A stretch of DNA of 64,000 bases from Candidatus Izemoplasma sp. GTDB taxonomy: Bacteria > Bacillota_I > Bacilli_A > Izemoplasmatales > Izemoplasmataceae. Within the stretch, counting starts at the first letter, position 1. Each line of letters begins with the position of its first letter. The notes beneath the pieces were generated by a model. The model was given only the letters and a program-made list of their open reading frames with translations, was not told the DNA's origin and made no database searches. The position numbers and the translations under genes are program-made. The DNA is taken from positions 62,001-126,000 of the forward strand of contig JAXKVY010000002.1 in NCBI GenBank assembly GCA_036172455.1, read 5' to 3'. Below are positions 1,654-21,728 of the stretch, in pieces.

Positions 1654-1682
1654 ATAATACCATGTTACACACGCAATTTCAA
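1654..1682 (-). promoter_or_regulatory. tracrRNA promoter
   Basis: Minus-strand TTGAAA (1677-1682), a 17-base spacer and TATTAT (1654-1659). The -35 box lies inside the last codons of cas9. The predicted start, around 1647, is just ahead of the first tracrRNA stem. Confidence 0.7.
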
Positions 1683-4600
1683 TATTTCATTATTAATTTT
1701 TCTATACTGCCCAATTGGACTTACTGCATATTTTTCAATTTTTTGTATATTTTTTGATATAGTCTTTAATAACCTTTTAGATGAAATGTGATTAATATAC
1801 TTTAACTCAATAATATTATTAGAGTCATTGTTTATGCCATTAAACTTGTAATATTTTGGGCGTGCATTTTTTTGAAGCCATTTGATGATTTCATTTTTGT
1901 GTAATGAAAACAAAAATCTTGCTTCTTTAGAAATTTCCTTTTCTTTTAGTTTTTCTTGATAAACTTCTTCACTAACCTTAAATCCCTTTCTAAATGGTTT
2001 TAGATCATAATATCTAATCGTTACAAACTTATAATCTCCATTCGGTTCTTGGTATAAGTCTAATCGGTAGGCAGAAATTTTTTGCAACACAACTTTTTTA
2101 TCAGTTTTATAATTAGAAGATATGTCAAGGTGATTCCCTAATTTTTTAGTTAAACATTTAACAAAAGTAATTTCTGGGCCATTATTTTGTTTAGCATATT
2201 TGGTGATTTTCTTACCTTGATTTTCTTGAAATGCTAAGAAGGGTTCTTTTTCTGTTTGATATTGTTTATAAGCCTTAATAAGTTTATCGTATGTCTTTCT
2301 ATCATGTTTGTAGACAAGACATCTTTCTTTTTCCTTAATTAAGCGACGTTCAATATCCTTTGCTTTCATTTCATAAATATTATATTTTTGCACTACATAT
2401 TCTTCATCTTGATGCACTCTTGTTGAATATATTGTCTCATTTGAAAACGCACGATTTACTTTTTTGTCGACTTTCCAAGCAAAGTTAATGTCATCATCAG
2501 TAATGTCGCCAAGTGTCGCTAGTCGTTCGACAAATGAATAATCTAAAATAGGGTTTTTATAGTAAAGTTCTCCTGTTTCTTCATCCATCTCTTGGTTACG
2601 TTCATCGATGATTAACTGTTTCAACAATTTTTGTTCTGAAAGCATTGCGACAATCAAAGCATCAATGGCATGGTGTCGATAATAATCACGATCTTTATGA
2701 AGTGGATTATCCATATCTTTAAGTAACTGTTTTCCATACTCATAAGCTGCTCTACTTCTAAACAAAGATGTATGTTTCCCTTTAACAGTAAATACTTTGG
2801 TATCAATATTATTGCTTTTATAATAATTTCTTAAAGACGTCATAAATTGTCTCACAGAATATGAAGTGTCAACAAGGTTTCTTGCTAGAAACTCTTCTTT
2901 AACATCAAATTTATTGACATCTTGTGCGAATAAGAGTAATTCTCTCTTGCGCTTTTTACCTTTATAATTTGAATTACCATTAATATGTTTTTTAAATTCA
3001 GTAAAGGTTGTTATTTTTCCATATGCTAACCCACGAGTGAAATACTCAAATGGTGTTTTATTGCCTTTTAGTTGATTTACTTTTCCTTCGACTAAAACTT
3101 TATTATTTTGAGAATTATCTAATGAAATGGAATATGGGATTATATGGTCAATTTCATAATCATCCGTTTGGTTAGCAATTGCTTTCAAGCTTAAGGCATT
3201 TCCTGTATAGGCGCATTTCCCATTTTGCTCCTCATACAACATCACTTTTTGTACCATTCGATTACTCATACGATCAGAACTATACTCACCAAGTATTTCT
3301 TTAGCTTTGTTACGTAAGTCTTCAAAGTATTTCTGTGTTTTCTGAATTCTACGACGTTGTTCAGCTGAATTTCTATCTCGAGTAGTTTCAATGACTACCT
3401 TATCAAAATTACCATACTTCTTTTGCAAAGCTTTTAGCACCTTAATCGCCTCACGCTGTACGCGCTTGACCACAGGCGACATTGGTTGTGTTTCATCAAT
3501 ATCTAACGATGTTTTACCCTGATCTTTTTTTAGATTTAAGCTCTCAATTAACTGCATTTGGTTTTGTAGTGTCGTCATCATTTCTTTATTTAACAAGTAA
3601 ATAGCTTTAAATGATAGTCGATGGTACTGTGTATATCCTGGTAATGTTGCAATGGCTTTATATAGCGTTTCATTATCAATAAATTCAGCTAATTTTTCTA
3701 GTCGCTCAGATTCAGTTTTATGACTAGTTAAGATTTCAGCTATTCGATCCACTACTGTTTCATTTAAGTAAAGATCTGAATCAAGTTTTTTACATAATTT
3801 TGCTAGCCTATTATAATCACTAAAATCTGTCATTATTGGTTTATTACTTTTGTTGGTCCTAAACCCTGTAATATTTCGTTCATCTAAATCAAAAAACTTT
3901 GCCAAAGCCTTTGCGGGATTACTTTTCGGACTTAAATATCCCTTTTCTTTTATTACATCAATGACTTTCATTTTTTTCTCTTCGGTCCATTCAAAATCTT
4001 CATTAATAAAAGATAAATTATTTAATTCATTTAATAAGTTAAATTTCAAAGCAGAAAAAGCACTACTTGGTGCGCGTAACTCATCATCATATATAGAACA
4101 TTTACCACGCATTTCTTCAATTAAATTTACTTTATATATCTTCCCTTCATCATCTTTTCTATAGCGCCCATAAGGGGTTGGTGATGTTTTTGATCCCGGC
4201 CCATCTGAATAATGTCGTTTTCGCTTAATTAATTCAATTATTTTATCTTTAGCCGATTCAGATAATGTCTGGTTTTTCAATATTGCTTTTGTTTCTTTAA
4301 TATAGTCTTCTGTTCTAAAATTATTTGTCTCACCACGAACTTTTTGATGGTTTAACAGTCGGTCTAATTGCACTTCACAAACATACTTATCTGCTTTATC
4401 AAGCTGTTTTGTATTGTTCTGTAAGACACCCTTCATTTTTTTTGCTTCATCATCTGAATCATCCGTAATTACAATATCTAGTGATGACCCTCTACGTTTC
4501 ACAATATGTAATAATGCAGTGGCGAGTTCACGATTGTTTAATTTTTCATTTAATCCTTTGACACGAATGTGATAAGGATTATCTAAATGAACAAAGTTAT

Positions 4601-4832
4601 CATCAATTATATTTTCTCTTTTCAGCAATCGCTTCATTTCAACTATACGCTGTTTTCGACGTCGCTTAACTCTTCTAGACCCTCTTTTTTCTCTTCGTTT
4701 AGCATTAAGATCTTTGTCGGCCTCATCAAATAATCTCACTCCGCAATCAACTACTTCTTTTTCATGATTAATAATTCCCCAACCTACTGAAGTTATACCT
4801 AAATCAAATCCCAAAATTAATCCATTACTCAT
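1665..4832 (-). CDS. cas9: Cas9 RNA-guided DNA endonuclease (short type II, SaCas9-sized)
   Basis: Effector nuclease of the type II CRISPR system, cutting DNA guided by crRNA:tracrRNA. All nuclease motifs are intact: RuvC-I GLILGFDLGITSVGWG (Asp10), then the Arg-rich bridge helix (KRRRKQRIVEMKRLL), RuvC-II VVIETTRDRNS (Glu482), HNH YEIDHIIPYSISLDNSQNN (His563) and RuvC-III HHAIDALIVAM (His721/Asp724). From the ATG at 4832 it is 1055 aa, close to the 1053 aa of S. aureus Cas9. That start puts the RuvC Asp at position 10, as in SaCas9, and has AAAGGA 8 bases upstream; start codons at 4841 and 4859 are possible. The carboxy-terminal PAM-interacting region shows no truncation. The neighbouring tracrRNA is also SaCas9-like. 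Interference looks functional even though cas1 is broken. Confidence 0.97.
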   Translation of the reverse strand: MSNGLILGFDLGITSVGWGIINHEKEVVDCGVRLFDEADKDLNAKRREKRGSRRVKRRRKQRIVEMKRLLKRENIIDDNFVHLDNPYHIRVKGLNEKLNNRELATALLHIVKRRGSSLDIVITDDSDDEAKKMKGVLQNNTKQLDKADKYVCEVQLDRLLNHQKVRGETNNFRTEDYIKETKAILKNQTLSESAKDKIIELIKRKRHYSDGPGSKTSPTPYGRYRKDDEGKIYKVNLIEEMRGKCSIYDDELRAPSSAFSALKFNLLNELNNLSFINEDFEWTEEKKMKVIDVIKEKGYLSPKSNPAKALAKFFDLDERNITGFRTNKSNKPIMTDFSDYNRLAKLCKKLDSDLYLNETVVDRIAEILTSHKTESERLEKLAEFIDNETLYKAIATLPGYTQYHRLSFKAIYLLNKEMMTTLQNQMQLIESLNLKKDQGKTSLDIDETQPMSPVVKRVQREAIKVLKALQKKYGNFDKVVIETTRDRNSAEQRRRIQKTQKYFEDLRNKAKEILGEYSSDRMSNRMVQKVMLYEEQNGKCAYTGNALSLKAIANQTDDYEIDHIIPYSISLDNSQNNKVLVEGKVNQLKGNKTPFEYFTRGLAYGKITTFTEFKKHINGNSNYKGKKRKRELLLFAQDVNKFDVKEEFLARNLVDTSYSVRQFMTSLRNYYKSNNIDTKVFTVKGKHTSLFRSRAAYEYGKQLLKDMDNPLHKDRDYYRHHAIDALIVAMLSEQKLLKQLIIDERNQEMDEETGELYYKNPILDYSFVERLATLGDITDDDINFAWKVDKKVNRAFSNETIYSTRVHQDEEYVVQKYNIYEMKAKDIERRLIKEKERCLVYKHDRKTYDKLIKAYKQYQTEKEPFLAFQENQGKKITKYAKQNNGPEITFVKCLTKKLGNHLDISSNYKTDKKVVLQKISAYRLDLYQEPNGDYKFVTIRYYDLKPFRKGFKVSEEVYQEKLKEKEISKEARFLFSLHKNEIIKWLQKNARPKYYKFNGINNDSNNIIELKYINHISSKRLLKTISKNIQKIEKYAVSPIGQYRKINNEILKLRV

Positions 4833-4965
4833 TGGCCTCATCCTTTCTTTTTCCTTCAAAAAATAATACTTAATTTATTTTGTTAATATATAAAAATAAA
4901 AAACTCCCCTTACAAGAAGTGATATAAAAACTATTGATTTGTTTTTTCCCTCCCCTATAATTTTA

Positions 4966-6852: not shown

Positions 6853-8319
6853 CTAATCATAATTTAAGTTCTTAAAAATTAATCTATGATAATCTAAATA
6901 TTTTTTGTTTCCATAACTTATTGCTATTTTCATGTTCTCATTCAGATTGAGGGATGTTCTATTTGCCTTAGATAATCTATCTGAAATTAAAATTCTCCCC
7001 TCTACAGTAAATGAAATGTAGTGATTATCGAATAATTTATCGTGATTCGGGCATAAAAGTAACCCATTATCTTCATCCAAATGTTCACCATCTTTACAAT
7101 CTTTCCAGGGTTTTATGTGACTTGCAATTAAAAACTCTGGATTTTCTACCCCGCACAGGACACATTTATTGTTAAATTTATCTAATATAAGATTTCTATA
7201 TTGGCTCTGACCTACTCTAGATTTTATGAGAGTTTCTTTATATTTATCAGGAACATCTTCTAAATCTTTTTCAATTTTCTCTTTCAATCCTTGTTTGTCA
7301 TAAAGACTAGGCCCCTTGTATTGATTAATATATCTAATAACTTTTACATTATATTTAGGATCACCGTACCAAATATTTGCTTGACCTATCTTATCACAAT
7401 TAAACGTTCTCTCTTTTTCAGGAAGTAAAGTAGCATCTTCGACAGCACATTCAATGTAATACCCTGCTTCCTCCTCTTCTCCTCTATCATTAATAAACCT
7501 TCGTTTTTCATTATTTAAGGCCTGCTGCTTTCGGTATAGTTTAGCATTTCTGTACCAACCGGTAATTACTCTACCTTTTATATCATCAGTGCTTACCCAT
7601 ATAATGTTAACACCTTCAATAAAATCCTCATGAGATTTAGCTCCTAACCTCTCAATTCTAATCTTTGCTTGTTTAAATTTATCTATTGAGTTTTTAAATC
7701 TCACATTCGGATTCCCTGGTGGTGGTTGAACAAACCCATAATATATCCCATTAATTTCTTTAAAATTAAATAGTTCATCCCCAATGCCATGCTCCGCAAC
7801 ATATTTTCCACCATGAACTGATGGTGTTTCCTCGGGTCCTTGATATAGTTTCATAGGAGCAACATTACAAAATAGAATAGGAGACATTTCTTCTTCAAAA
7901 TTATAGTTATCACAATGTTCTTCTATACTGGATATGTAGTTATTCAATTCTTCTTTTTTATCAACTTTTATAGGTCCTTGCGGTGCTGAATTTAATCCAT
8001 TCATTTTTAGAGACTCTAAAGATAACTTTTCATCATCAAATGTTCTAATTAATTTGAATCTTGCAAAGGTATTTGCCTTTCTGTTTTTTTGTTCTTTCTT
8101 CCAATATTCCCAATCAGTTTTCATTTCATGAAAGGGAATATTGATTTTTTCTACAACACACTTAAACATTATTTTTTGATAAGGTCTAGTTGAGTAAATA
8201 TACACAGTATCTCCTACTTTGTATTTTGTGTTATTCATTCTCCAATCAATAATTTTATTATCATAAAATGCTTTAAAGTGATCGTAAATGTTAGGATTAG
8301 CAGATATTAGCCATTTCAT
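6853..8319 (-). CDS. EVE-like/HNH endonuclease (probable modification-dependent restriction enzyme)
   Basis: 488 aa. The first about 130 residues (MKWLISANPNIYDHF, then KVGDTVYIYSTRPYQKIMF) look like an EVE/PUA-family fold, which binds modified bases in DNA. A central region (residues about 150-300) is unassigned. Residues about 380-450 form an HNH nuclease: CVLCGVENPEFLIASHIKPW, then NGLLLCPNHDKLFD, with the two zinc Cys pairs and the His of the beta-beta-alpha-metal motif. EVE-HNH proteins are known type IV-like restriction enzymes acting on 5-methyl- or hydroxymethylcytosine DNA; applying this here is inference. The start is ATG at 8319 with AGGAGGATAG upstream. It is the last gene of the minus-strand island, 45 bases after the NERD gene. 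Confidence 0.8.
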   Translation of the reverse strand: MKWLISANPNIYDHFKAFYDNKIIDWRMNNTKYKVGDTVYIYSTRPYQKIMFKCVVEKINIPFHEMKTDWEYWKKEQKNRKANTFARFKLIRTFDDEKLSLESLKMNGLNSAPQGPIKVDKKEELNNYISSIEEHCDNYNFEEEMSPILFCNVAPMKLYQGPEETPSVHGGKYVAEHGIGDELFNFKEINGIYYGFVQPPPGNPNVRFKNSIDKFKQAKIRIERLGAKSHEDFIEGVNIIWVSTDDIKGRVITGWYRNAKLYRKQQALNNEKRRFINDRGEEEEAGYYIECAVEDATLLPEKERTFNCDKIGQANIWYGDPKYNVKVIRYINQYKGPSLYDKQGLKEKIEKDLEDVPDKYKETLIKSRVGQSQYRNLILDKFNNKCVLCGVENPEFLIASHIKPWKDCKDGEHLDEDNGLLLCPNHDKLFDNHYISFTVEGRILISDRLSKANRTSLNLNENMKIAISYGNKKYLDYHRLIFKNLNYD

Positions 8320-8364: not shown

Positions 8365-9111
8365 TTAGTTCTCTCCGACTAGTGCTTTAACTTGCTCAAT
8401 ATGTTTTATCTTAACATCTTCTGGCATGTTACATTGCTTAACTAAATCAATTAGATATGCTTCTTTCATATCTATTGTAAGTATATCAATATCTCGTCGT
8501 TCTTTATTTTTAACAAATTTAATTGCATCACGATATTGAAATACATTGTGATTCTTGCCAACATTAATCTTGCTGAGTTTGCTATTATTTGAGAAGACTG
8601 TTACTGGAATAATTGAATCACTTTTGATACTAAGATACTTTTCAATTGCCTTTGTGTGCACATAATTTTGACGTAGCGGATTATAAAACTTATTCTTTAC
8701 CCATTTATTTAAGACTTGAGTCCAATATCTATCTCTTTCCGAACCGTATATGTATCCTGAATAATTTTTCATTTCAAATACATATATACCTTTTGTTGAA
8801 ACTGCGATTACATCAATCTCAGTTGAATCAGTATTAACATTTTCTAAATAAATATTGGTCAGTACAGATTTTTTATCAAAGGTTCTTATCAATTTCCTAT
8901 ACAAAATAAATTCCCCATAGTTTCCTTTATCAAAATAGGTTTTTATAAAACTATTTCCTGATTTTTCTTTGTACCTTGATGTATAAAATGTGATTAAATC
9001 AAACGAAAATACTATAATTCTAAATATTAATTTTATGATAGTTTTAATAATCAATATGATTAATAATACTAGTTGTTCAGCTGTATCTTGTTTTTTTCTT
9101 CTTCTGGCCAT
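8365..9111 (-). CDS. Membrane-anchored NERD-domain nuclease-like protein
   Basis: 248 aa. A basic N-terminus (MARRRKKQ) is followed by a hydrophobic segment at residues about 13-40, so it is probably tethered to the membrane. The NERD (nuclease-related) domain follows: GNYGEFILYRKLI, then EIDVIAVSTKGIYVFEMKNY. The Asp of EIDVI and the Glu-x-Lys of FEMKN are the PD-(D/E)xK-like active-site residues, and both are present. NERD proteins are DNA- or RNA-processing nuclease relatives common in defence and mobile regions; no substrate can be assigned. It sits 28 bases downstream of the MazG-like gene, suggesting one transcript. The start is ATG at 9111 behind AAGGAA. Confidence 0.8.
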   Translation of the reverse strand: MARRRKKQDTAEQLVLLIILIIKTIIKLIFRIIVFSFDLITFYTSRYKEKSGNSFIKTYFDKGNYGEFILYRKLIRTFDKKSVLTNIYLENVNTDSTEIDVIAVSTKGIYVFEMKNYSGYIYGSERDRYWTQVLNKWVKNKFYNPLRQNYVHTKAIEKYLSIKSDSIIPVTVFSNNSKLSKINVGKNHNVFQYRDAIKFVKNKERRDIDILTIDMKEAYLIDLVKQCNMPEDVKIKHIEQVKALVGEN

Positions 9112-9139: not shown

Positions 9140-9466
9140 TTATAACTTGGTATATTTTTTTGAAGAACCGTATGCTTTACTTACAGGGTACTTCTTTTTA
9201 TTGTCTTCAATCTTACGATGTGTCTCTTTTATTAAATCAATGTCTAAATCATGACATAGCAATAATAGATATCCAAAGATATCCGCAACTTCATCTTTGA
9301 CATTGTCTATATCAGCATGTTCATTTCCCCACTGATAGTTTTCTAATAGTTCAGTGGCTTCTATGACAATACTTTTTGTTAGGTTCTCTGGTGTGTGAAA
9401 TTGTTTCCAATCACGCTCTTCTCTAAACTGTTTAAGTTTTTGTAGTAGCTCATTAATTTCTTTCAT
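9140..9466 (-). CDS. MazG-like nucleoside triphosphate pyrophosphohydrolase
   Basis: 108 aa of the all-alpha NTP pyrophosphatase (MazG/dCTPase-like) fold. These enzymes hydrolyse (d)NTPs to monophosphates. The metal-binding helix motifs are visible as EATELLE (residues about 36-42) and DEVADIFGYLLLLC (about 59-72), and WKQFHTPENLTKSIVIEATE is typical of the short dCTPase-like group. Its start overlaps the 3' end of the GIY-YIG/DUF2075 helicase gene by 14 bases, so the two are translationally coupled. The pairing suggests a joint role such as nucleotide depletion or processing linked to helicase action, but that is inference. Confidence 0.85.
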   Translation of the reverse strand: MKEINELLQKLKQFREERDWKQFHTPENLTKSIVIEATELLENYQWGNEHADIDNVKDEVADIFGYLLLLCHDLDIDLIKETHRKIEDNKKKYPVSKAYGSSKKYTKL

Positions 9467-11081
9467 CTTGCACCTCTTTTAAGCTGTTTTCTAAATATGT
9501 TCTAAAATTTTTGTTACATGCATACATGTAAATACCTTGTATCCCACGCGTCATCATCGTAACATAGATATTTTGAATATATTGTTTTAGATATTCTAAA
9601 TTTTTGATACTCGCTTTCCCATTACGATCGTAGTATTTATCTTTATCAATTACGATTGTTTTATTGATATGATCATAATCAATTTCTTCACCAAATATCA
9701 AAAATACATAGTTTAAATCATACCCTTGAATAGTATGGATACAACCCACTTCATGAATAGCATTTTCTGAATTTGGCCAATCGACTTGTTCAACATTCCA
9801 TTGTTTTTGAATACCTTCTATTTGGATATCAAATAGGGATGTATCTTTTTTAGATATCCAATCAAATGAATAACCTGAAACCATTCTTGTTAATCCATAC
9901 TCTTTTTCCTTTTGATACAACATATTATTAAATGTTTTAAACGAGTAAAACAACTGTACATCATATGATTCTATATCATAAGGTCCTCTAATGCGATTAT
10001 GCATTAAATCTCTAGCGTAACGAATAAATTCATTGCCACCTTTAACACGATGTTGTTGTTCTAAGGAATAGGTTGTTATCGGTCGGTCATCTAATTCATC
10101 AACTTTTAATTCTTCAAACTTATTTTTTGGTATATCAGTCGGCTTAATGGATTGATTCGCATCATAAAATAAGATTTGATGTTTAGATTGTTGTAAGATC
10201 CAATCTAATTGATCACCTTTGTCTTTACTTAAACTCAAGTAATCATTAACTTTGTCAAAGGTATGATATTCTCCTCCCGCAGATAGGTTTTGTCGTCTTT
10301 TTAAACGGTGGGCTTCATCAACAATCAAGACAGTATAATCATGTTTTACTACTTGACTAGGTTTAATAATGTTTTTAGCATATAAACCATCAATACTTTT
10401 TGCAACGTTTCTCAATGTTTTGTACAAGGAGTCCATTGATACAACTAACGCAACATTATGACGCCCATATTGTTTCGCCAATTGTTTTAAAAAATACATT
10501 GCTAAGACAGTTTTTCCAGTTCCTGGATTTCCTTCAATAAAGGAAATTGAGCGACCTTCTTCTTTTATATCACTCATTACCATCTTAGAAATAGCAAATT
10601 GTTCTATTGATAATGACTTGTATGGTGAAAATTTAAACAGATCTGAATTTTCGATCTCAAAGACTGTTTTATCTGCAAGGTGTTTTGCTCTTAGTTTATC
10701 CCATATTGGTTCAACCAAACTTAAATACTGTGAGCGATCATAATATTCTTGATTACCAATTCCTCCATTAGCATTCAATATCTTAAACTTATTATCAGCC
10801 GCAAAGTAATTAATCAACTTAGCCTCAATATCCAAAACAGCTGATTTGTTAAATGTATCATTAACGATACAATGAGATCTATTTAAATGGCTTCTTGTAG
10901 GATTATCTAAATGTTGTTTCATACGTCTTCTGAAATTATTCGTTTCACCAACATATAATTCTTTACCGTTTTCTAGTAAATATACGACAGGCCAGTTATC
11001 ACCTTTAGAGAACGATTGTTCACTAGAGTCTTTTGTTGAATCAAATGCACCTTTGTTAAACTTGAACTCTTTTATATGCAT
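9453..11081 (-). CDS. GIY-YIG nuclease fused to DUF2075 (Schlafen-like) helicase/ATPase
   Basis: 542 aa from the ATG at 11081, chosen because GGAGGGG lies just upstream; a TTG four codons earlier is inside that site. Residues about 30-60 carry a GIY-YIG-type nuclease core (VVYLLENGKELYVGETNNF with RRRMKQH). A P-loop NTPase of the DUF2075 family follows, with Walker A EGNPGTGKTVLA (about 185), Walker B VLIVDEAHRLK (about 260) and the late helicase motifs GCIHTIQGYDL and YVTMMTRG. DUF2075 proteins are superfamily-1-like helicases or ATPases often found in defence loci. All motifs look intact. The enzyme is encoded with, and overlaps, a MazG-like hydrolase. Confidence 0.85.
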   Translation of the reverse strand: MHIKEFKFNKGAFDSTKDSSEQSFSKGDNWPVVYLLENGKELYVGETNNFRRRMKQHLDNPTRSHLNRSHCIVNDTFNKSAVLDIEAKLINYFAADNKFKILNANGGIGNQEYYDRSQYLSLVEPIWDKLRAKHLADKTVFEIENSDLFKFSPYKSLSIEQFAISKMVMSDIKEEGRSISFIEGNPGTGKTVLAMYFLKQLAKQYGRHNVALVVSMDSLYKTLRNVAKSIDGLYAKNIIKPSQVVKHDYTVLIVDEAHRLKRRQNLSAGGEYHTFDKVNDYLSLSKDKGDQLDWILQQSKHQILFYDANQSIKPTDIPKNKFEELKVDELDDRPITTYSLEQQHRVKGGNEFIRYARDLMHNRIRGPYDIESYDVQLFYSFKTFNNMLYQKEKEYGLTRMVSGYSFDWISKKDTSLFDIQIEGIQKQWNVEQVDWPNSENAIHEVGCIHTIQGYDLNYVFLIFGEEIDYDHINKTIVIDKDKYYDRNGKASIKNLEYLKQYIQNIYVTMMTRGIQGIYMYACNKNFRTYLENSLKEVQDERN

Positions 11082-11314
11082 AGGCCCCTCCAATCAAGAG
11101 TTATTATTTATCATTATGTGTATTTTACCATGAGTGTGTGATTCATTCAATGTTACTATGAGTTTACTAGTTTGCTATTTCCATTTCTATATTTTTTATT
11201 AAAACCATGACATATATTAAACTTAAATAAATCTATAGCTCAGGAACATTGAACACACTGATAATTATTTGTAATCAATCAAAAACAATCATAAGGATTA
11301 TTGCTCTTCCTAAT

Positions 11315-12637
11315 TCATTCTTTTATATATGCTTTGTATGAACTTGGTATTAACTCACACTCTTCTTCTAGTGATCCATTGAACTTGTAAAACATTGGTT
11401 GATTTGAATCTAAATTATAAACGCGGTAAATCCAATAATTATCTTTCTTTTCAATCGAAGTATCCACTTCATTTTTACTCACATCAAAAGGATGGCTTTT
11501 ACCTAAAGTGGTGCCTTTAACTTCAATATACTTATCATTGCCATTTTCATCAAAAGATAGAATATCATACCCAAAATTATCAGCTTCTTTTGCGACCCAC
11601 TTTACTTTATTGGCTAAATCTTCTCTGCCAATACTTATGAGATAATTCTTCTCATAAGCTTCTACTAGTTTTTCTGCAAAATACCCTTTTTTAATATCTC
11701 TTTCTGCTTTTTTAAGATAATCTGTTTTCTTATAACGAACTCTTTTCTTATTTGTGTTTGGTTTATTTGATTTTATGGGTGGGGCATCTTCGATTATCAT
11801 CATGTCTGCTTCTGATAACCCTTCTGCTTCTAGAATTGATTCAAGTATTGTTTCTTCATCTTCTGAAATTTCAAAGATATCATCAATATGATCTGATTTA
11901 TATTCATCACTAATAAATTGATTTAGATATCTTCCTAATTCATTACTAATCTTAAATAAGTACCCTACATTCCCATTTCCAGTTTCTTTTTTAAAGGGAC
12001 TATATTTATCCGTAAGCATAGGTCGGATAATATCAATATGATCTTTAATTTTGATACCATCATCAACCATGTAGTAATCTACATCAACTAACCATCCTTC
12101 ATTAATCCAAAGATCATTGTCAAATGGGTTAGGAGCAAGAATGGCTTTCTTTTCAACAATACCTTTTGCATTGACACGATTATTCACAATACTAAAAACA
12201 ATATCTCCAGGCTGACAAGCAGTTAAATTTTTCCAATGAAATTTGGGATCAGATCCATTTTTACTCTTTCTAGGCGCCCATAAAATACCTTCTTTGTACT
12301 CCTCTTTATAAGTTTTGCCTTGGAAAACTATAAAATACTGCGGACCTTCTTGCTTGGAATTTTTGATTAGCCTAAATTCTTGATTTGGAGTGACCTTCTC
12401 ATATTTTGATTCAAATAAGTATTCTCCAGAATGCATCGCAATATCACTGTCTTTTGAATATTTGTAAATGGTGTCTCGAATCTTCGCCTTTTTGGCAGTT
12501 TCACTAGCATAATTGTTAAAAATCGCTTGACTATTTTGACTATCAATAATATGATTCTGTATATTATTGAGCTTTACAAAGCCTTTATGAACTAAATAAT
12601 TTTTCACCAAGTTTATAATTGTTTGTTCTTGTGTCAT
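11315..12637 (-). CDS. DUF3883 (NO VEIN C-terminal) nuclease-like protein with PUA/EVE-like sensor region
   Basis: 440 aa in three parts. Residues 1-85 look like a winged-helix DNA-binding region. Residues about 95-235 (WAPRKSKNGSDPKFHW, then CQPGDIVFSIVNNRVNAKGI) resemble an EVE/PUA-type base-reading fold. The C-terminus (about 320-420) is a DUF3883 domain with GYFAEKLVEAYEKNYL, FGYDILSFDENGNDKYIEVKG and a following basic segment. The D-x(n)-E-x-K pattern in YDILSF...YIEVKG is the PD-(D/E)xK nuclease signature. A base sensor joined to such a nuclease is a type IV restriction layout; the specific function is inference. A weakly conserved acidic linker separates the domains. Start ATG at 12637 with AAAGGGG upstream. 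Confidence 0.75.
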   Translation of the reverse strand: MTQEQTIINLVKNYLVHKGFVKLNNIQNHIIDSQNSQAIFNNYASETAKKAKIRDTIYKYSKDSDIAMHSGEYLFESKYEKVTPNQEFRLIKNSKQEGPQYFIVFQGKTYKEEYKEGILWAPRKSKNGSDPKFHWKNLTACQPGDIVFSIVNNRVNAKGIVEKKAILAPNPFDNDLWINEGWLVDVDYYMVDDGIKIKDHIDIIRPMLTDKYSPFKKETGNGNVGYLFKISNELGRYLNQFISDEYKSDHIDDIFEISEDEETILESILEAEGLSEADMMIIEDAPPIKSNKPNTNKKRVRYKKTDYLKKAERDIKKGYFAEKLVEAYEKNYLISIGREDLANKVKWVAKEADNFGYDILSFDENGNDKYIEVKGTTLGKSHPFDVSKNEVDTSIEKKDNYWIYRVYNLDSNQPMFYKFNGSLEEECELIPSSYKAYIKE

Positions 12638-12687: not shown

Positions 12688-13016
12688 TCACATGCTTTCA
12701 TCAACATGTAACAAGTACACTTTATCTTGAAATTTTCCCTTTTTTATATTTTTATCTTTTCTAGTCTTCTCGATAACTTCTTCACTAATTTTCATTACAG
12801 TAATTATATGCGACAATACTTCCTTAATGTCAGCTAACTCCTCGATAATATTTTTTGAGTTTTTGCTTCTATTAATTCTTGCGATTCCTCAATTAATTTT
12901 CTCTTTAATTCATGTACATATTCTGAATCAGACAATATTTTTGTTTTACAGTTCTTTCCTGCTTTTTCTATAATATCCGGTATGCCATCTCGAACGAGTT
13001 TATTATAAACTTTCAT
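12688..13016 (-). pseudogene. Second MazG-like pyrophosphohydrolase, frameshifted in a homopolymer
   Basis: The frame opens MKVYNKLVRDGIPDIIEKAG, the classic start of small MazG/phosphoribosyl-ATP-pyrophosphohydrolase-like proteins, continues to LIEESQELIEA, then stops early after 60 aa. In the next frame the family sequence continues perfectly: NIIEELADIKEVLSHIITVM, then EVIEKTRKDK and KKGKFQDKVYLL, ending at TGA (12688-12690). The shift lies in a run of six Ts at 12851-12856, where one base is missing. The full protein would be about 108 aa. The gene is 4 bases after the HNH gene, clearly the same operon. A sequencing or assembly error in the homopolymer is a real possibility. Confidence 0.85.
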
Positions 13017-13020
13017 TAAC

Positions 13021-13980
13021 CTATCCTTTCATATTGATATACAGTTTTTCTAATGAGTGATGCGTTAAAGAATATTCAATTTTTTTCCTTAATTTGTGGT
13101 TATCATGAATTGATTCCATTAATTCACTATTTCGCTTTTTGAGTTTCTCTATTTCCACTTTAGTAGGTGGTCTATTCCCTTTTTTCATATTGGTAGTAGA
13201 TTTCGTTACGACCAAGTTCCAAATTTCGTTCGTATAAATGAAACTCCATGGAATCACATGATCAATATGGATATCTTTTATATCAATGACTTCACCGGTA
13301 TAAAAATCTCTAACCTGTTCTTTATGATAATATTTTAACAATAAATTTTTATACTTTCTGAGGCTACTTCTTTTAATTTTCCTTTCAGAAGCTGCGTTTA
13401 CTTTCTGTGAAATTTTAGGTGCTAAGTTAAATCTTTCTAGTAGTTGTGCCCATTTATAGTTTAATAGTTTTGATAAGACAAATGCATACTCTTTCAAAGT
13501 TGCTATATCTGTCTGTTTGAACACTAAAAGTCTTTCTTTATCTAAAATTTCATAAATCATTAAAGTGCCTGTTTTAACGTTCCTGAATCTTGGGCAAACA
13601 TTTATACGTGCATTAGATAGAATTTTAGATATAACTTTTTTTAATAAGCGAGCATCTTTGTAGAAAAATGCCTCAACTTCATTCCATGGTTTTGGGTATG
13701 TATCAACTTCATTTTTGTAATACTCAATCAATACCTTTACTTGTTTTAGTATCACTGGGTTCTTCCCTTGGGATAGTCCAAAGAAGAAAGTTTGATTCCA
13801 ATAATACTTGATCATCTTTAATGCTATATCAGACTGTTTCATAATGACATTATCATCTTCTATAGAATACTCATTTAAATACGCACATTCAATAATGCCT
13901 CTTCCCCAAGCAGTTTTATATGTATTATCATTTTTCATTTCTTCAATAATTTTAATCCATTGCGATAAATAATTTTCCAT
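13021..13980 (-). CDS. HNH endonuclease partnered with the fusion helicase
   Basis: 319 aa. The first about 215 residues are an uncharacterised helical region rich in Lys and aromatics. An HNH nuclease domain follows at about residues 220-275: DFYTGEVIDIKDIHIDHVIP with NLVVTKSTTNMKKGNR. The catalytic DH pair and the downstream Asn are in place, and the pattern resembles the HNH of Cas9 and HNH_4 families. There is no zinc Cys pair. The start is ATG at 13980 with AGGAGGTG upstream, 44 bases after the large exonuclease-RecQ-UvrD gene and 4 bases before the MazG-like gene. This arrangement implies a three-gene unit. The function, probably DNA cleavage in anti-phage defence, is inferred from context. 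Confidence 0.75.
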   Translation of the reverse strand: MENYLSQWIKIIEEMKNDNTYKTAWGRGIIECAYLNEYSIEDDNVIMKQSDIALKMIKYYWNQTFFFGLSQGKNPVILKQVKVLIEYYKNEVDTYPKPWNEVEAFFYKDARLLKKVISKILSNARINVCPRFRNVKTGTLMIYEILDKERLLVFKQTDIATLKEYAFVLSKLLNYKWAQLLERFNLAPKISQKVNAASERKIKRSSLRKYKNLLLKYYHKEQVRDFYTGEVIDIKDIHIDHVIPWSFIYTNEIWNLVVTKSTTNMKKGNRPPTKVEIEKLKKRNSELMESIHDNHKLRKKIEYSLTHHSLEKLYINMKG

Positions 13981-14024
13981 GAAACACCTCCATATAGCAT
14001 AGGTCTAACATTTTATCTTATTGA

Positions 14025-17000
14025 TTAATTCTCTTTTTGATATATTACGCGGGGTAAAGGTATCCAATAATATTTATCGCTGTCACTATCGTACCATTTC
14101 ACAATATATTTAACATATGCCTTAGATAGTCTATATCCTTTTTCTAACTTGCTTTCTATATCTTCTTTCATTTTATTAGAAAAATATAAGGCATCCTTAC
14201 CTAAGTATGTTAACTTATTCTCCTCAACATTAAGTTCTGTCCCTGTGTTTATCTTATTCATTATATGTTGAATATATTTGCCGCCACCGAGATTCACATC
14301 ATATAATGTCATTTGAACACTTAGAGATTGTGGTCGCTCATATATTTTTTGATCTTGAGTTATTTTAGAATATGGCAAATCATCAAATAAGTCAGTATTT
14401 GTTAATATTACAAGGTTACTTTTTGCTCTTGTCATAGAGACATATAATGCTCTTAAGGTTTCTTGATCATGCATTTCTTTATCTACAAGAAGAAACACAT
14501 TCTCAAACTCTCTTCCTTTCGATTTATGCATTGTTGAAACGGTGATTATACCGTTTTTTTCTTTGTATAAATCTTGTAAGTGCATTTCATCTAAATAGGT
14601 TTCTAAATCAACTCGGTACTTTTGATTAGGATATAATACATCAAATCCTAAAATGAGATTTTTAAGGTTTTCATGTAAATGATTATCTTTTTTACTTTTT
14701 AAGAACATTTGCGTTAATTCTTTCCATCGTCTTTTAGAAATCACATTATTATCTGAATCAAATAACCTTTTTAACTCATCGACCTCTTTTAACATCGATA
14801 AACGGTAGTTAGCATTATCTTGTATTAACGAGACATGAATACCGTGATCATCAAGTTCTCCAGCAATAATTTCAGATTGTTCATTTGTTGGCGTTAAAAT
14901 TGCGGTTGTTTTTTTACTATCCATACTTTTAATCATATTTAATAATGGTGAATATAAGTATTCTGACTGGTACTTATAGAGCAAGATATTTCCATCTTCT
15001 TTAGTGTAAGATACACCAGATTTCTCTTTAAATCGGTCTTTTATTTTACGAACAAATTTCTGCGTAAAATCAACTAAATTTGCTTTGCTTCTAAAGTTTA
15101 TACTTAACTCATATATTCTAGCGCCTTGCTTTGTGAGATCATAAAAATATTTAGCGTTTGATCCTCTAAAGGCATAGATGTTTTGATCATCATCTCCAAC
15201 TGCGATTATTTTAAGGCCGTTGTTCCATTCCATTAATGCTTTAATTAATTCATAGTCCGACTTACTCATGTCTTGTGCTTCATCAATGACTAGTGTCGTT
15301 TTATTAACTATGCTTTCAACAACATTTTTCTGTTCAATTTTAGCAATAGCACGCTTGAAAAGTTTATCATTATAATCAATGTTTCCAACCTCCCCTAACA
15401 CATCAAAACAAAATGAGTGAAATGTCTTGATATCCACATAATTAGCTTTTGGACCAATCAAGTTATAGAGTCTTTTTTTAAATACAATCGTGGCCGAGCG
15501 GCTAAATGTTAGCATCAATAATTGGTTAACTTTGACATCTTCAAGTTCTATTAACGAGGCAAGTTTATGGACTAATAATGTTGTTTTACCACTTCCTGGG
15601 CCTGCTAGTACAACAATATTTTCTTCTTTAGAGTTAATAATAGCTTGTTGTTCATTTGTTAAGGTTTTAAACAATTCATCATACTTACCCTGAGTCATGG
15701 GTCGATTAATAAAGTTTTTATACTCATCTGTGATATATTTATCCTCAAAGGCTTGATAAGATAAGTTAAAATAATCATCAACTAATTCTAATCCTTTTTG
15801 TTTATCTTCTTGCATGACACTAACAAAATGAATCAGTAGATGGACTTTCTTAATTTTATTCTGATAATACCGTTTAAAATAATCATAGTCTTCATCTTTA
15901 TATAATGTCCGAGCGCCTTGTTCAATCCGCTTTATTTTCATTGGGTTATAAAGCACTAAGAAACCACCATCTATAATGAGTGACCCAACACGGTTAATCA
16001 GTAACAGTGCTTGTTCACATTCTAGTAAACTAGTTGTTGAATTAAATAGACTAGGTTGTTCATTATAAGCGTTTTTTATTTGAACTAATGAATACCCTAT
16101 AGAATCTGTATTATGTGCAGCAAATTTTTTATACGAATAATTGATAATAAATTCTGTTAAACTTGCAAGGTTGCTTATATATGTCTCTATTTCTTCCTTG
16201 GGTTTTAATAATGATAAATATCTATGATGAACTTTTCTTGGTACTCGAGTTTCTCTGATATATTTTTGTTCTGACAAAAAGTTTATGACCCGTCTAAGAG
16301 CGTAACCATCTGATGCAGGAATATGCTCTTTGATTTCTGAGTTTAGTTTTTTCAGACTATAAAAATTCTTGTCATCATCAACTAAAGCAATAAACTTACG
16401 CATGATATTGATGTAATTTGTCATTACTTTTTGTGATTTATTCTTTTTGAAGTCTGTCGGTATTTGAACAACTAAGTCATCATCATCTTTGATAAGCTTA
16501 AAATCTTTTAAAATATTAATATATCTAATAATCTCACGCTTGGTTAAATCAAGTTCATCATATAAATCATCAATCATGGTAATAGGTTTAGACCCACGCT
16601 CTATCCGTGTTGTCTTATCAGTATATAATCGTGTCATGATTCGTTGTAATTGCATCTTTTCATTATCATCAAAGTTTTTAAGTTGTTCTATCTTCTTGGT
16701 AGCTTCCTTCATCGTTTTCGGGAGAATACTAGATGCGTAAACTGTGGCAGCATTTTCCTGTCGTTCAATATATTTTGCTTTTTCTAAAGCTAAAATACAT
16801 GTCTTAACTTTTGTGGTCTCATCAAAGATTGTGGTTTCTTCATCCCACCCTGTTCTACGGACAAGTTCTTTGGCTGAAATGGTTAAATGATTCTGTTGTT
16901 TAGTAGAGCTTCTAATGGCTTTCCATACCTGATTTATATCACTCTTTGTTAATTTTTGACTTGTGAGCAAACTAAAATGCGCTTCAACATCTTTTTCATC

Positions 17001-18770
17001 ATATAAGATGTGACATTGAGCATCAATATTAGGATCACGTCCACCACGGCCTGCTTCTTGCATATAATCTTCAATTGTTGAGGACACCTGGTAATGAATA
17101 ACAAATGCCACATCACTTTTATCCACACCCATACCAAATGCAGAAGTTGCAACAATAATATTTACATCACCTTGACTAAAAGCTAATTGATACTGATTCT
17201 TTCTTTCTATTTCCATTCCACCATGATAAGATCGTGCAGTAAATCCACTATCATTTAACTCATCAGCAACTTTTTCGGCACTTTTACGTCGTGTTGTATA
17301 AATGATAACTGGCTTATTTCTATTATCTTCTAATAAATCCTTGATATATATCATTTTTTCTTTATGACCATCACATTTCTTAACATAAAAATGCAAATTA
17401 TGTCGTCTTGTATTGGCTCTATAAACTTCCATATCAATACCTAAATTAGACTTAAAGTAATCTTGAATATCCTCAATAACTTCTTCCTTAGCAGTCGCTG
17501 TGAAACACGATACTGGTATGGTCTTATTTTTCAGACTTTCTTCTTGTAGGTTTTTGATGAATGTTGCAATATATAAATAGTCCACTCTAAAATCATGTCC
17601 CCATGTTGAAAAACAGTGGGCTTCATCAATTACAAATCGGCTAATATTACGTTTACTTAACCGTTTAAGTGTTGATGGTGATCGTAACATCTCTGGTGCA
17701 ATATAGAGTAAGTTAATTTTACCATCACGTAAATCTCTTAAAGTATTACGCCGTTCTAGTGTATTCATTGAACCATTAATTGTTCCCACATTATTAATAC
17801 CTTTTTGTTTAAGGTTTTCCACCTGATCATTCATTAATGACTGTAATGGTGAGATAACAATTGTTAATCCTTTAACGTTTTCTCCCATCATTAATGCAGG
17901 TAATTGAAATGTTAAGGATTTTCCACCGGCTGTTGGAAAAATAGCTAGAATTGACTTTCCATCTATTTGGGCATTAACGGCGTTTTCTTGTAAACTTTTC
18001 CCCTCAAAGCGTCTAAAAGAATCATATCCAAAATATTGCTTTAACGCATCCTTACTATTAAAATGATCCGTACAATAACTACAATTATGGCACGGGATAC
18101 CACGTAAAGTATCCATTACAAACTGATAATTATTGTATTTATGGACGACCCAATTAGGTGCGATACTCTGTTGATCAGATACATTAATAACTGCTAAACA
18201 ATAGGCTAACTCTTCAGGATAGTTATGAATCAGTTGACTTATATCAACACTAGAACATATCTGTCCATTAAAGCGTTCTAAAATTAGGGTTTTAAGATTT
18301 TCAACATATGGTTTGTATCCAACGTATTTAAAAAAGTCCTTAAATGCATCACTTGACTTTAATAACGCATAGTAAATTTGTTTTAAGTTATCATCTAGAC
18401 GATTCCATTCTTCTACTTCTTCAACAAATAGATGATGTGATAGACTCGCATCTACAAAAGGATCATTATTTAAATCCCGCTTTAGCTTATAGTTTTTAAC
18501 CAATGAATGGTAGGGTCTTTTCGCAAACAAAAGAGCAGACAAGGGTAAGGTATCTATTACTTGCTTTATGCCTGCTTTTTTTACTTCTTTATCTATATAG
18601 CGTAAGTCATGCATCAAAACATTATGACCACAAATTGTATCATAACGTTTTATAAATTTAATGAATCCCTTATTATTCCCATGGAAATGATGATTACGGT
18701 CAACAAAAGCTCCATAATCTTTAACATTATTCTTGCCATCCACTTCTAAGTCAATAAATACGATAGCCAT
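14025..18770 (-). CDS. Giant exonuclease-RecQ-UvrD fusion helicase
   Basis: 1581 aa with three DNA-processing modules. Residues 1 to about 170 are a DEDD-type 3'-5' exonuclease (FIDLEVDG, GHNVLMHDLRYI, NDPFVDASLSHHLF), although the last motif lacks the usual His. A Cys cluster (PCHNCSYC) follows near 225. Residues about 255-620 are a RecQ-type superfamily-2 helicase with Walker A TAGGKS (about 278), DEAH VIDEAHCFSTWGHDF (about 381) and QEAGRGGRDPN, followed by winged-helix-like sequence. Residues about 1040-1480 are a UvrD/Rep superfamily-1 helicase with AGPGSGKTTLLVHK (about 1057), LVIDEAQDMS, GDDDQNIYAFRGSN, STMHKSKGREFENV and LYVSMTRAKSN. All ATPase motifs are intact. It heads an operon with an HNH nuclease and a MazG-like gene. 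Start ATG at 18770 behind GAGGGAT. Confidence 0.9.
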   Translation of the reverse strand: MAIVFIDLEVDGKNNVKDYGAFVDRNHHFHGNNKGFIKFIKRYDTICGHNVLMHDLRYIDKEVKKAGIKQVIDTLPLSALLFAKRPYHSLVKNYKLKRDLNNDPFVDASLSHHLFVEEVEEWNRLDDNLKQIYYALLKSSDAFKDFFKYVGYKPYVENLKTLILERFNGQICSSVDISQLIHNYPEELAYCLAVINVSDQQSIAPNWVVHKYNNYQFVMDTLRGIPCHNCSYCTDHFNSKDALKQYFGYDSFRRFEGKSLQENAVNAQIDGKSILAIFPTAGGKSLTFQLPALMMGENVKGLTIVISPLQSLMNDQVENLKQKGINNVGTINGSMNTLERRNTLRDLRDGKINLLYIAPEMLRSPSTLKRLSKRNISRFVIDEAHCFSTWGHDFRVDYLYIATFIKNLQEESLKNKTIPVSCFTATAKEEVIEDIQDYFKSNLGIDMEVYRANTRRHNLHFYVKKCDGHKEKMIYIKDLLEDNRNKPVIIYTTRRKSAEKVADELNDSGFTARSYHGGMEIERKNQYQLAFSQGDVNIIVATSAFGMGVDKSDVAFVIHYQVSSTIEDYMQEAGRGGRDPNIDAQCHILYDEKDVEAHFSLLTSQKLTKSDINQVWKAIRSSTKQQNHLTISAKELVRRTGWDEETTIFDETTKVKTCILALEKAKYIERQENAATVYASSILPKTMKEATKKIEQLKNFDDNEKMQLQRIMTRLYTDKTTRIERGSKPITMIDDLYDELDLTKREIIRYINILKDFKLIKDDDDLVVQIPTDFKKNKSQKVMTNYINIMRKFIALVDDDKNFYSLKKLNSEIKEHIPASDGYALRRVINFLSEQKYIRETRVPRKVHHRYLSLLKPKEEIETYISNLASLTEFIINYSYKKFAAHNTDSIGYSLVQIKNAYNEQPSLFNSTTSLLECEQALLLINRVGSLIIDGGFLVLYNPMKIKRIEQGARTLYKDEDYDYFKRYYQNKIKKVHLLIHFVSVMQEDKQKGLELVDDYFNLSYQAFEDKYITDEYKNFINRPMTQGKYDELFKTLTNEQQAIINSKEENIVVLAGPGSGKTTLLVHKLASLIELEDVKVNQLLMLTFSRSATIVFKKRLYNLIGPKANYVDIKTFHSFCFDVLGEVGNIDYNDKLFKRAIAKIEQKNVVESIVNKTTLVIDEAQDMSKSDYELIKALMEWNNGLKIIAVGDDDQNIYAFRGSNAKYFYDLTKQGARIYELSINFRSKANLVDFTQKFVRKIKDRFKEKSGVSYTKEDGNILLYKYQSEYLYSPLLNMIKSMDSKKTTAILTPTNEQSEIIAGELDDHGIHVSLIQDNANYRLSMLKEVDELKRLFDSDNNVISKRRWKELTQMFLKSKKDNHLHENLKNLILGFDVLYPNQKYRVDLETYLDEMHLQDLYKEKNGIITVSTMHKSKGREFENVFLLVDKEMHDQETLRALYVSMTRAKSNLVILTNTDLFDDLPYSKITQDQKIYERPQSLSVQMTLYDVNLGGGKYIQHIMNKINTGTELNVEENKLTYLGKDALYFSNKMKEDIESKLEKGYRLSKAYVKYIVKWYDSDSDKYYWIPLPRVIYQKEN

Positions 18771-19034: not shown

Positions 19035-20366
19035 TCAAGTATAAGAATGAACTAAATTAATCTTTGTCCACCTACGTAAATACCATCTCAATGCCATCGT
19101 TAAGCCTCTCAAGACTTCATCAATCATTGCGGCGATATAAACCCCTAAGATTCCCATTTCTAATCTTATGCCAAAGATATAGGTAAATAAGACAGCGATA
19201 CCAAACATACTAATGACTGCCATTACGACAGGGAATACGGTATCTCCGGCACTTCTTAAGGCTTGGATATAAACTAAGTTCATCGCTCTACCGATTTCAA
19301 TGAATACAGAGATATATAAGACTTGTCTCACCATTTTAATAATGACTGGGTCATCCGTAAATAAGCTAATAAGAGAATTGCTGAAGACATTTAATAAGAC
19401 TGTGACAATCACAACAAATATAAAGGCAATACGTAAGGTCTTAAGTGTATGTTTATAAGCCGCATCAGGGTTTTTCTCACCAATGAAGTACCCAACAATA
19501 ATACTATTACCACTGGCTAAGCTAAAGCTAAACATAAAGACAAATGGTAAGATTGCCTGAATATAACTTCTTGCGATGACAGCTTCCTCTGTCATTTGAT
19601 TAATGAAGTAAAGTATGGCCACTTGAGCAATATTCCACATTAAATTCTCCATTGCACTCGGGACACCTATAAAAAGAATTTTCTTTAAATGTTCTAAGTG
19701 CAATCGAATATGTAATACTTTAATATGGAGTATTTTATATGAGCCGATGAGTAAGATGACAACCATCATAATCCGTGATATTAAAGTTCCGATCGCAGCC
19801 CCCGTCACGCCTAGACTAGGAAATCCTAATAAGCCATAGATCAACACTGCGTTTAGTCCAATGTTTAATACATTACCAAGAATCATAATCATCATGACAA
19901 TCTTAGGCTTAGAAAAACTTCTAAAGCCGGTACTTAAACTCACGCGTAACGCTATAAAGACAATCGAATATCCAACAATCTTTAAATAGGCGACAGAATC
20001 ATCCATAAATACATCACTGGTCCCAATCCATCCTAAGAAAACATTGCCAAAGACCACGACAATTAAAGAGAGTAAAATCCCAATAATCGTGTTACCAGCA
20101 ATCCCTGTCGCAATCGTATCTTTTGCCTTTTGGACTTGTTTTGCGCCTAAATATTGCGCACTCACTACCCCAATACCAATTCCAATGACATTGACTAAAA
20201 TACCAAACAAATAAAGAATTTGATTACTAACACCAACACTCCCTACCGCCGTATCACTATATTGTGACAACATAAATGTATCGACTGTACCAAGTAAGGT
20301 AAAAAATAACATTTCAATAAAAATTGGCCATGTTATTTTATATATATTTTTTTCAAGTTTCGCCAT
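19035..20366 (-). CDS. MATE-family multidrug/metabolite exporter
   Basis: 443 aa, twelve predicted membrane helices in two homologous halves, as in Na+- or H+-driven MATE antiporters that export cationic drugs or metabolites. Supporting stretches are ITWPIFIEMLFFTLLGTVD at the start of helix 1, DTFMLSQYSDTAVGSVGVSN after it, and GVPSAMENLMWNIAQ at the start of the second half. I chose the ATG at 20366 (MAKLEKNIYK) because AGAGGTG lies 6 bases upstream; the GTG at 20375 is part of that ribosome site. The gene is monocistronic, with its own terminator. Substrate cannot be told from sequence. Confidence 0.92.
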   Translation of the reverse strand: MAKLEKNIYKITWPIFIEMLFFTLLGTVDTFMLSQYSDTAVGSVGVSNQILYLFGILVNVIGIGIGVVSAQYLGAKQVQKAKDTIATGIAGNTIIGILLSLIVVVFGNVFLGWIGTSDVFMDDSVAYLKIVGYSIVFIALRVSLSTGFRSFSKPKIVMMIMILGNVLNIGLNAVLIYGLLGFPSLGVTGAAIGTLISRIMMVVILLIGSYKILHIKVLHIRLHLEHLKKILFIGVPSAMENLMWNIAQVAILYFINQMTEEAVIARSYIQAILPFVFMFSFSLASGNSIIVGYFIGEKNPDAAYKHTLKTLRIAFIFVVIVTVLLNVFSNSLISLFTDDPVIIKMVRQVLYISVFIEIGRAMNLVYIQALRSAGDTVFPVVMAVISMFGIAVLFTYIFGIRLEMGILGVYIAAMIDEVLRGLTMALRWYLRRWTKINLVHSYT

Positions 20367-20482
20367 GATGATCACCTCTAGTATTTGTTACAACTGTAAT
20401 AGTTTGCCACAAATCACTAGAAAACACAACTGTAAACCTCTCTCTTTTTAAAATACTTATCCTGGCTATATAATCCCTATAT

Positions 20483-20597: not shown

Positions 20598-21083
20598 ATA
20601 GGAAGAAAATCGGAATATAGCAAAGAACTAAGAATAGAGCTATCAGAAAGATGTCTAAATGGGGAATCAAAAAGTGTATTATCAGAAGTATATGGTGTTA
20701 CAGTTGAGAGGTTAAACGCATGGAGCAAGCAATACGAGGCAATGGGTGAAAAGGCATTTGAACTGAAAACGAGAAACAAAAGATATAGCAAAGAGTTTAA
20801 ACAGATGGTAATCAAAGAGTATTTAGAAGGGAAAGGATCACTAAACCAACTTGCTATTATGTATAATATTAGTAGTCATGAGGTTCTCAGAAAATGGATT
20901 ATGAAGTATAATAGTCATATAGAGATAAAGGATTACAATCCTAAACCGGAGGTCTCTATGGCAAAGTCTAGAAAAACAACCTATGAAGAACGGATAAAAA
21001 TCGTACATTATTGTTTAGAGCATACTTTAAGTTATAAGGAAACAGCAGTCAAATATGACGTTATTCATCAACCGAACTTATGA
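20598..21083 (+). pseudogene. IS3 transposase OrfA, start codon lost and 3' end deleted
   Basis: The frame reads GRKSEYSKELRIELSERCLN, then SKSVLSEVYGVTVERLNAW and RYSKEFKQMVIKEYLEGKGS: two helix-turn-helix units of the IS150 OrfA type. The expected ATG, six bases after GGAGGT, is ATA (20598-20600). The related remnant at 43784 still has ATG in the same sequence context. After KETAVKYDV the sequence jumps straight into the OrfB frame region (FINRTYERQYNV), so the OrfA tail and OrfB head are deleted at about 21056-21062. It is not expected to be functional. Confidence 0.8.
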
Positions 21084-21728
21084 ACGCCAGTACAACGTCA
21101 AGCGTATTCGTAGACATATGAGAGATTTGGGGGTGTCTTCAGCCATCCGCCGTAAGAAAAAGAATTATCTGAGATATAAACCTGAACAAGTTGGAGAAAA
21201 CATCTTAAATCGTGAATTCACAGCATCCAAACCCAACGAGAAATGGCTTACGGATGTGACGGAGTATAAGATAATAGGGTCAACTAAAAAACTATATCTA
21301 AGTGCGATTCTAGATCTCTATGATAACAGTATTGTCGCTTATCGTATGGGTCTGTCCAACAACAACGATTTAGTATTCAAAACATTTGATGACGCAATCA
21401 AGGCATATCCGAATGTGATAAGATTCTATTCCATAGTGATCGTGGGTTTCAATATACTAATCGCACGTTTAAGAAAAAACTCGATAACGTTAAGTTTAGA
21501 CAGAGTATGTCTAGAGTTGGCCGCTGTATTGACAACGGACCAATGGAAGCATTCTTCGGAGTAATGGAAGTTGAGATGTATAAGCTAAATAAGTTTTACG
21601 CCATAGACCAATTAAAAATGGCTATTGAAGAATATATTACATTCTACAATAACCAACGTTATCAACCAGTATTAAAAGGCTTAACTCCAATGGAACTTAG
21701 GAATCAAGCCTTTGCTCTAATACAATAA
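21060..21728 (+). pseudogene. IS3 transposase OrfB (DDE integrase core), N-terminally deleted and frameshifted
   Basis: The rve integrase core is recognisable: FINRTYERQYNVKRIRRHM, then PNEKWLTDVTEYKI (first Asp) and AILDLYDNSIVAYRMG. A frameshift follows near 21420-21430, with the family sequence continuing in another frame as LFHSDRGFQYTNRTFKKKL (second Asp), RCIDNGPMEAFFGVM (catalytic Glu) and EYITFYNNQRYQ. The catalytic triad is encoded but split between frames, and the N-terminal third is missing through the deletion that joins it to OrfA. The element is therefore dead unless complemented by another copy. Confidence 0.82.

Follow-up and report, generated by a model that had tools for sequence, protein, structure and literature searches.

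Helicases of the RecQ and UvrD families move along DNA in the same direction, 3'-5', and the eukaryotic WRN protein combines an exonuclease with a RecQ helicase. In type II Thoeris the HIT protein ThsC is encoded by an accessory gene, and control of the nucleotide signal has been proposed as its role (PMC8565338). The MazG NTP pyrophosphohydrolase figures in DefensePredictor as a predicted defence domain that is stated to lack experimental validation, and the available part of that report makes no mention of the pairing with HNH proteins that characterizes the module described below (PMC13092281). Standalone HNH effectors have been recorded around BREX (PMC12839542).

The locus analysed here is situated in a stretch of 64,000 nucleotides of Candidatus Izemoplasma sp. 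(class Bacilli_A; contig JAXKVY010000002.1, positions 62,001 to 126,000), hereafter called the window. One of its genes encodes a fusion protein in which, similar to RecQ (TIGR00614) proteins and WRN, a predicted N-terminal DEDD-type exonuclease is followed by a RecQ helicase core. It differs from these in an additional C-terminal UvrD helicase and in the replacement of the motif III histidine by asparagine. Gabija GajB, DpdF and PsyrT were the best PADLOC matches of its UvrD and RecQ parts, but only the generic helicase cores were matched, and neither GajA (Gabija) nor other Dpd proteins nor PsyrA (PsyrTA) were present among the flanking proteins scanned. The adjoining HNH protein shares the catalytic D/H/N residues and their surroundings with Cas9 (PF13395; SpCas9) over ~85 residues. 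In contrast to Cas9, this protein of 319 aa has no RuvC match and no room for a REC lobe, and its N-terminal region is a separate one. Septu PtuB is likewise a small HNH protein of defence islands, but the PtuB match was weak and restricted to at most 2 out of 16 HNH homologues, and whereas PtuB pairs with the PtuA ATPase, the HNH protein pairs with a MazG, HIT or methyltransferase protein. No PtuA was found among the window genes scanned. As with ThsC, a HIT-family nucleotide hydrolase also occurs beside the HNH module, but the core genes are different and HIT alternates here with MazG and methyltransferase.

Results

The genes under study are located on the minus strand in a probable defence island. 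The fusion gene (14025-18770) is one intact open reading frame of 1581 aa, comprising the exonuclease domain (residues 1-225, DEDD-like with Asn in motif III), the RecQ part (residues 240-740) and the UvrD part (residues 1034-1465). It is followed after 44 bases by the intact HNH nuclease frame (13021-13980), which places a Cas9-type HNH domain at residues ~200-300 behind the N-terminal region, and after another 4 bases by the start of a frame of the MazG-like NTP pyrophosphohydrolase gene (12688-13016). A previous sequence-only reading of the window had reported this order. Its HNH nuclease gene was confirmed, and so was the frame start after 4 bases, but the MazG-like gene, which it took to be a single one, is broken into two frames by a shift of one base within an A-run. 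The next gene of the same run encodes a NOV_C-domain protein (11315-12637) whose C-terminus resembles PADLOC PDC-S36 and PD-T4-1. Also on this strand are genes for a GIY-YIG plus Schlafen group 3 helicase (9453-11093), its partner, a second and intact MazG-like protein (9140-9466; PF12643), a NERD-domain nuclease-related protein (8365-9111) with a homologue directly downstream of an HNH homologue in locus L177, and an HNH_2 nuclease (6853-8319) with a homologue near HNH in L170. A type II Cas9 is encoded at window positions 1665-4859, and a MATE-family transporter gene is located at 19035-20375. Promoter and terminator scans were uninformative, the sites being no commoner than in shuffled sequence.

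The RecQ part of the fusion protein scored 309.4 bits against TIGR00614, which exceeds the curated cut-off of 219.8, and stayed below the cut-offs of the RecQ equivalog models of NCBIfam. The UvrD part was matched by PF00580 (9e-33) and PF13361 (2.7e-15). For the exonuclease part, Pfam yielded nothing at threshold (RNase_T 0.051), and comparison of its profile with the PDB by sequence gave no match. The acidic DEDD residues of motifs I-III (D7, E9, D55 and D107) are nevertheless identical in 71 out of 71 relatives. The histidine of the DEDDh motif III is replaced by Asn in 68 of these relatives, with Asn102 in the window, and by Ser in the remaining 3; neither the histidine required of DnaQ/DEDDh exonucleases nor the DEDDy tyrosine is found in the 71 family members. 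The single frame with RecQ and UvrD domains given by the sequence-only reading was confirmed; since the motif III replacement is family-wide, its description of the motifs as intact is only partly true. Its further description of two opposed helicase types is unsupported for two families of the same polarity. The modelled exonuclease domain (pLDDT 92) resembles DinG, TREX1-like and Pol II exonucleases with a probability of 0.99-1.00; because of E values of ~0.01 and TM scores of up to 0.43, these matches are supportive but no proof. Between the exonuclease and RecQ parts, C172 and C227xxC230xxC233 are invariant in a 50-member alignment of relatives and could constitute a metal or iron-sulphur cluster site. 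An Aliarcobacter relative lacks the CxxCxxC motif.

The HNH protein matched HNH_4 (1.5e-12), and its catalytic residues D240, H241 and N264 align with D/H/N of SpCas9. Against the full-length Cas9 model TIGR01865 it reached 47 bits vs a cut-off of 100, with the HNH region matched and RuvC unmatched, and against the IscB model NF040563 15.6 bits vs a cut-off of 175. The N-terminal 200 residues had no convincing match in Pfam or PDB. Single-sequence structure prediction of the protein was useless (pLDDT 35). By full-length matches, the family is present in about 19 out of 247 genomes of the class. No homologue was found in the viral contigs of IMG/VR, and the family is not covered by any PADLOC or NCBIfam model in the versions searched.

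A second copy of the HNH family in the same genome (G000:C2:297012-297962; L031 7989-9020) has lost the HNH residues and is overlapped by an intact MazG gene. Copies devoid of the HNH residues recur across the taxonomic family of the window at a chromosomal metabolic locus with adjoining aminotransferase and ATPase genes. Often they have retained MazG or HIT, which does not look like defence.

In the window, the MazG-like frame at 12834-13016 ends at a stop codon after only 60 aa; what is left of the gene (12688-12828) is read in another frame. In an alignment with the intact L031 copy and with L183, one base is missing from an A-run. A pseudogene or mutation, a sequencing or assembly error, and slippage are all candidate causes of this split. 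With its MazG partner frameshifted, the HNH module of the window either is in decay or relies on a different enzyme, and the obvious candidate for a substitute partner is the intact MazG-like protein at 9140-9466.

Missed by the earlier reading was the conserved unit of the locus. A same-strand gene for a MazG protein (13 loci), a methyltransferase (11 loci) or a HIT protein (5 loci) is located within 100 bp of the HNH gene in 29 out of 44 HNH loci, a count of which about 15 are independent because 14 of these genes had served as seeds for the three partner profiles. The partner genes occur on either side of the HNH gene and often overlap it, and only one further partner homologue was detected elsewhere in these 44 loci (573 ORFs). 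Pfam identified the partners as HIT (3e-24 or better), class I methyltransferase and PRA-PH/MazG proteins. Four more of the 44 loci have a Schlafen helicase and a PF12643 MazG-like protein, i.e. a second MazG type, directly upstream, and about a quarter lack a recognised partner. On an HNH tree from a short search with 12 weak forks, the partner changed at least 11 times among the loci having one. In L036, L170, L175, L177 and L178, the gene immediately upstream of the HNH homologue, or the one next to it, encodes a homologue of the Schlafen group 3 helicase, and in L036, L170 and L177 the pair of GIY-YIG Schlafen helicase and PF12643 MazG-like protein is directly upstream. Hence, the HNH gene forms the conserved core of a mobile two-gene module of its own, in which the partner, a MazG, HIT or class I methyltransferase gene, has been exchanged repeatedly. 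Neither the partner swap nor the three-gene set of fusion, HNH and MazG was found to be described in the literature searched, which took in few subscription journals.

The same exchange was found in a remote sister subfamily of HNH proteins, which is carried on plasmids of Bacteroidota, Cyanobacteriota, Pseudomonadota, Bacillota and Actinomycetota and is related to the window family along the entire protein, N-terminal region included (hhalign 99.1%, E 5.5e-19). Its members are accompanied by HIT in Algoriphagus, Persicobacter and Hymenobacter (L091, L212 and L213), by a methyltransferase in Acinetobacter and Roseomonas (L218 and L219), and by MazG in Lysinibacillus (L220) and, divergently oriented, in Rhodococcus (L221). 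These partners match the profiles built from the partners of the window family with E values of 1e-26 to 1e-69. None of the three partners is present in L214-L217, and the phage records searched contained no match to the sister subfamily. Chance can hardly account for the same three-way swap in two remote HNH subfamilies.

The HNH pairs adjoin Dnd restriction (L045), PtuAB-like or Septu-like (L028), McrBC (L037) and GmrSD (L034) genes, AIPR and DpnI-type genes (L032 and L033), a type I RM system (L214) and Schlafen helicases. In L045, L040 and L047, an HNH homologue and a methyltransferase gene immediately precede genes for a Dnd restriction helicase and a DndD-like protein, which were assigned by models in L045 and by homology in the other two. 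Comparison with PADLOC and NCBIfam found no system model that matches the set of the window, in agreement with the earlier reading, to which no named system of exactly this composition was known; only helicase or HNH cores were matched, and an assignment to a named defence system was rejected.

The fusion was found in 10 out of 247 genomes of the class and has at least 513 relatives in GTDB, the best 80 of which are chiefly from Bacteroidota and Bacillota. A six-frame search of up to 10 kb around the loci of these best 80 out of at least 513 relatives detected the HNH family at 1 locus and MazG at none. Co-occurrence of the exact triad, which the sequence-only reading had offered as a check of its proposal, was therefore not seen at these fusion loci. 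Scattered defence families are found among the neighbours, including the Schlafen group 3 helicase as 3 out of 97. The commonest neighbour family was seen at 5 of the 80 loci, and a conserved neighbour of the fusion was rejected. Plasmid copies in Bacteroides and Aliarcobacter (L026/L027) have no HNH or MazG neighbour, and long copies are present on eight IMG/VR contigs. Thus, the fusion is a widespread, normally solitary gene. Two copies from the same family and order, L143 (G208) and L142 (G194), have unrelated neighbourhoods, and L142 adjoins genes similar to those near L034.

Discussion

The explanation which we favour, though with slightly less than even confidence, is that the site is a defence island composed of two separable units, a fusion gene of the solitary type and an HNH-partner module, in which HNH activity would be controlled by a ligand and the fusion would process the resulting cuts. 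In this model, contact of its N-terminal region with a nucleotide or nucleic acid that is foreign or altered would cause the HNH effector to nick or cut DNA. That this region acts in sensing or targeting is a guess, since the structural model of the protein was unusable (pLDDT 35). The MazG, HIT or methyltransferase partner may set or reset the HNH activity by hydrolysing or methylating this same ligand or DNA group. Where the fusion adjoins, it would load at the cut, unwind in 3'-5' direction and digest the DNA. We infer the defence role, the ligand control and the cooperation of the units.

The fusion, an HNH protein and a nucleotide-handling partner occur together in four lineages of two phyla. 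Besides the window, these are L032, L033 and L169 of one genus with the order HIT-HNH-x-fusion, L036 with the order Schlafen helicase-MazG2-HNH-fusion, and Algoriphagus L091, one of the 80 fusion loci, where the fusion is followed by a divergent HNH protein and an overlapping HIT gene, i.e. the order of the window with HIT replacing MazG. In the class sample, HNH was present in 4 out of 10 fusion genomes vs 15 out of 237 others (Fisher p=0.004, with relatedness ignored). Recurrence and enrichment together indicate a preference, or facultative association, in defence islands and not a fixed operon. That the fusion adjoins HNH repeatedly, in four lineages from two phyla, also speaks against mere co-residence in a nuclease-collecting island, by which the adjacency of fusion and HNH would be meaningless and the HNH-partner pair would still be a real unit. 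This alternative, to which the many unrelated systems adjoining HNH pairs and the lack of a conserved fusion neighbour (largest family at 5 of the best 80 out of at least 513 loci) lend weight, seems unlikely to us but deserves serious consideration.

A closer union, in which fusion, HNH and nucleotide hydrolase form one antiphage system with the HNH protein cutting, the fusion degrading and the hydrolase depleting nucleotides, appears improbable. The gene orders of Algoriphagus, L032/L033/L169 and L036 and the enrichment of HNH in fusion genomes would be expected from such a system, but 79 out of 80 fusion loci (best 80 out of at least 513) have no HNH-family neighbour, the same holds for the plasmids L026/L027, and in about 39 out of 44 HNH loci the pair occurs without the fusion. 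Moreover, order and spacing of fusion and HNH pair vary between lineages, and MazG is broken in the window. By these neighbourhood counts a fixed three-gene system was rejected. What remains of the earlier proposal of a self-contained system is the recurrence of fusion, HNH and partner in four lineages and in defence-rich neighbourhoods; its exact triad, with a broken MazG, is unsupported. It is very improbable that the partners serve in house-cleaning or repair and that the HNH proteins are homing-type nucleases, selfish or domesticated, without a part in defence, as might be suggested by the homologues devoid of HNH residues that persist at one metabolic locus in the family of the window and by matches of the HNH part to phage HNH families, since the genes overlap, three partners are interchangeable, restriction and Dnd genes are associated, and the HNH family is absent from IMG/VR contigs as is the sister subfamily from the phage records searched.

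In a further reading, which we consider somewhat less likely than not, the HNH unit would be a hitherto undescribed defence module spanning several phyla, with a Cas9-type HNH, a new N-terminal sensor domain and interchangeable control by MazG, HIT or methyltransferase, which is able to recruit the fusion as a processor. If this is true, the interchange would mean that MazG, HIT and methyltransferase act on one common ligand, and if HNH is gated by its partner, the repeated swap would provide a direct route to this shared ligand. It would also explain why 'house-cleaning' enzymes without a tested role recur in defence islands. The fusion, in which a WRN-like front end is combined with an unusual motif III, is of interest as a widespread gene in its own right.

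At the edge of the island, beyond the MATE gene, two overlapping frames (20742-21564) look like a broken IS3-type transposase, as judged by eye only. Just before the window, beside cas9, is a CRISPR array in which 32 copies of the repeat are spaced by 66 bases (G000:C2:59281-61300; L222 5282-7300).
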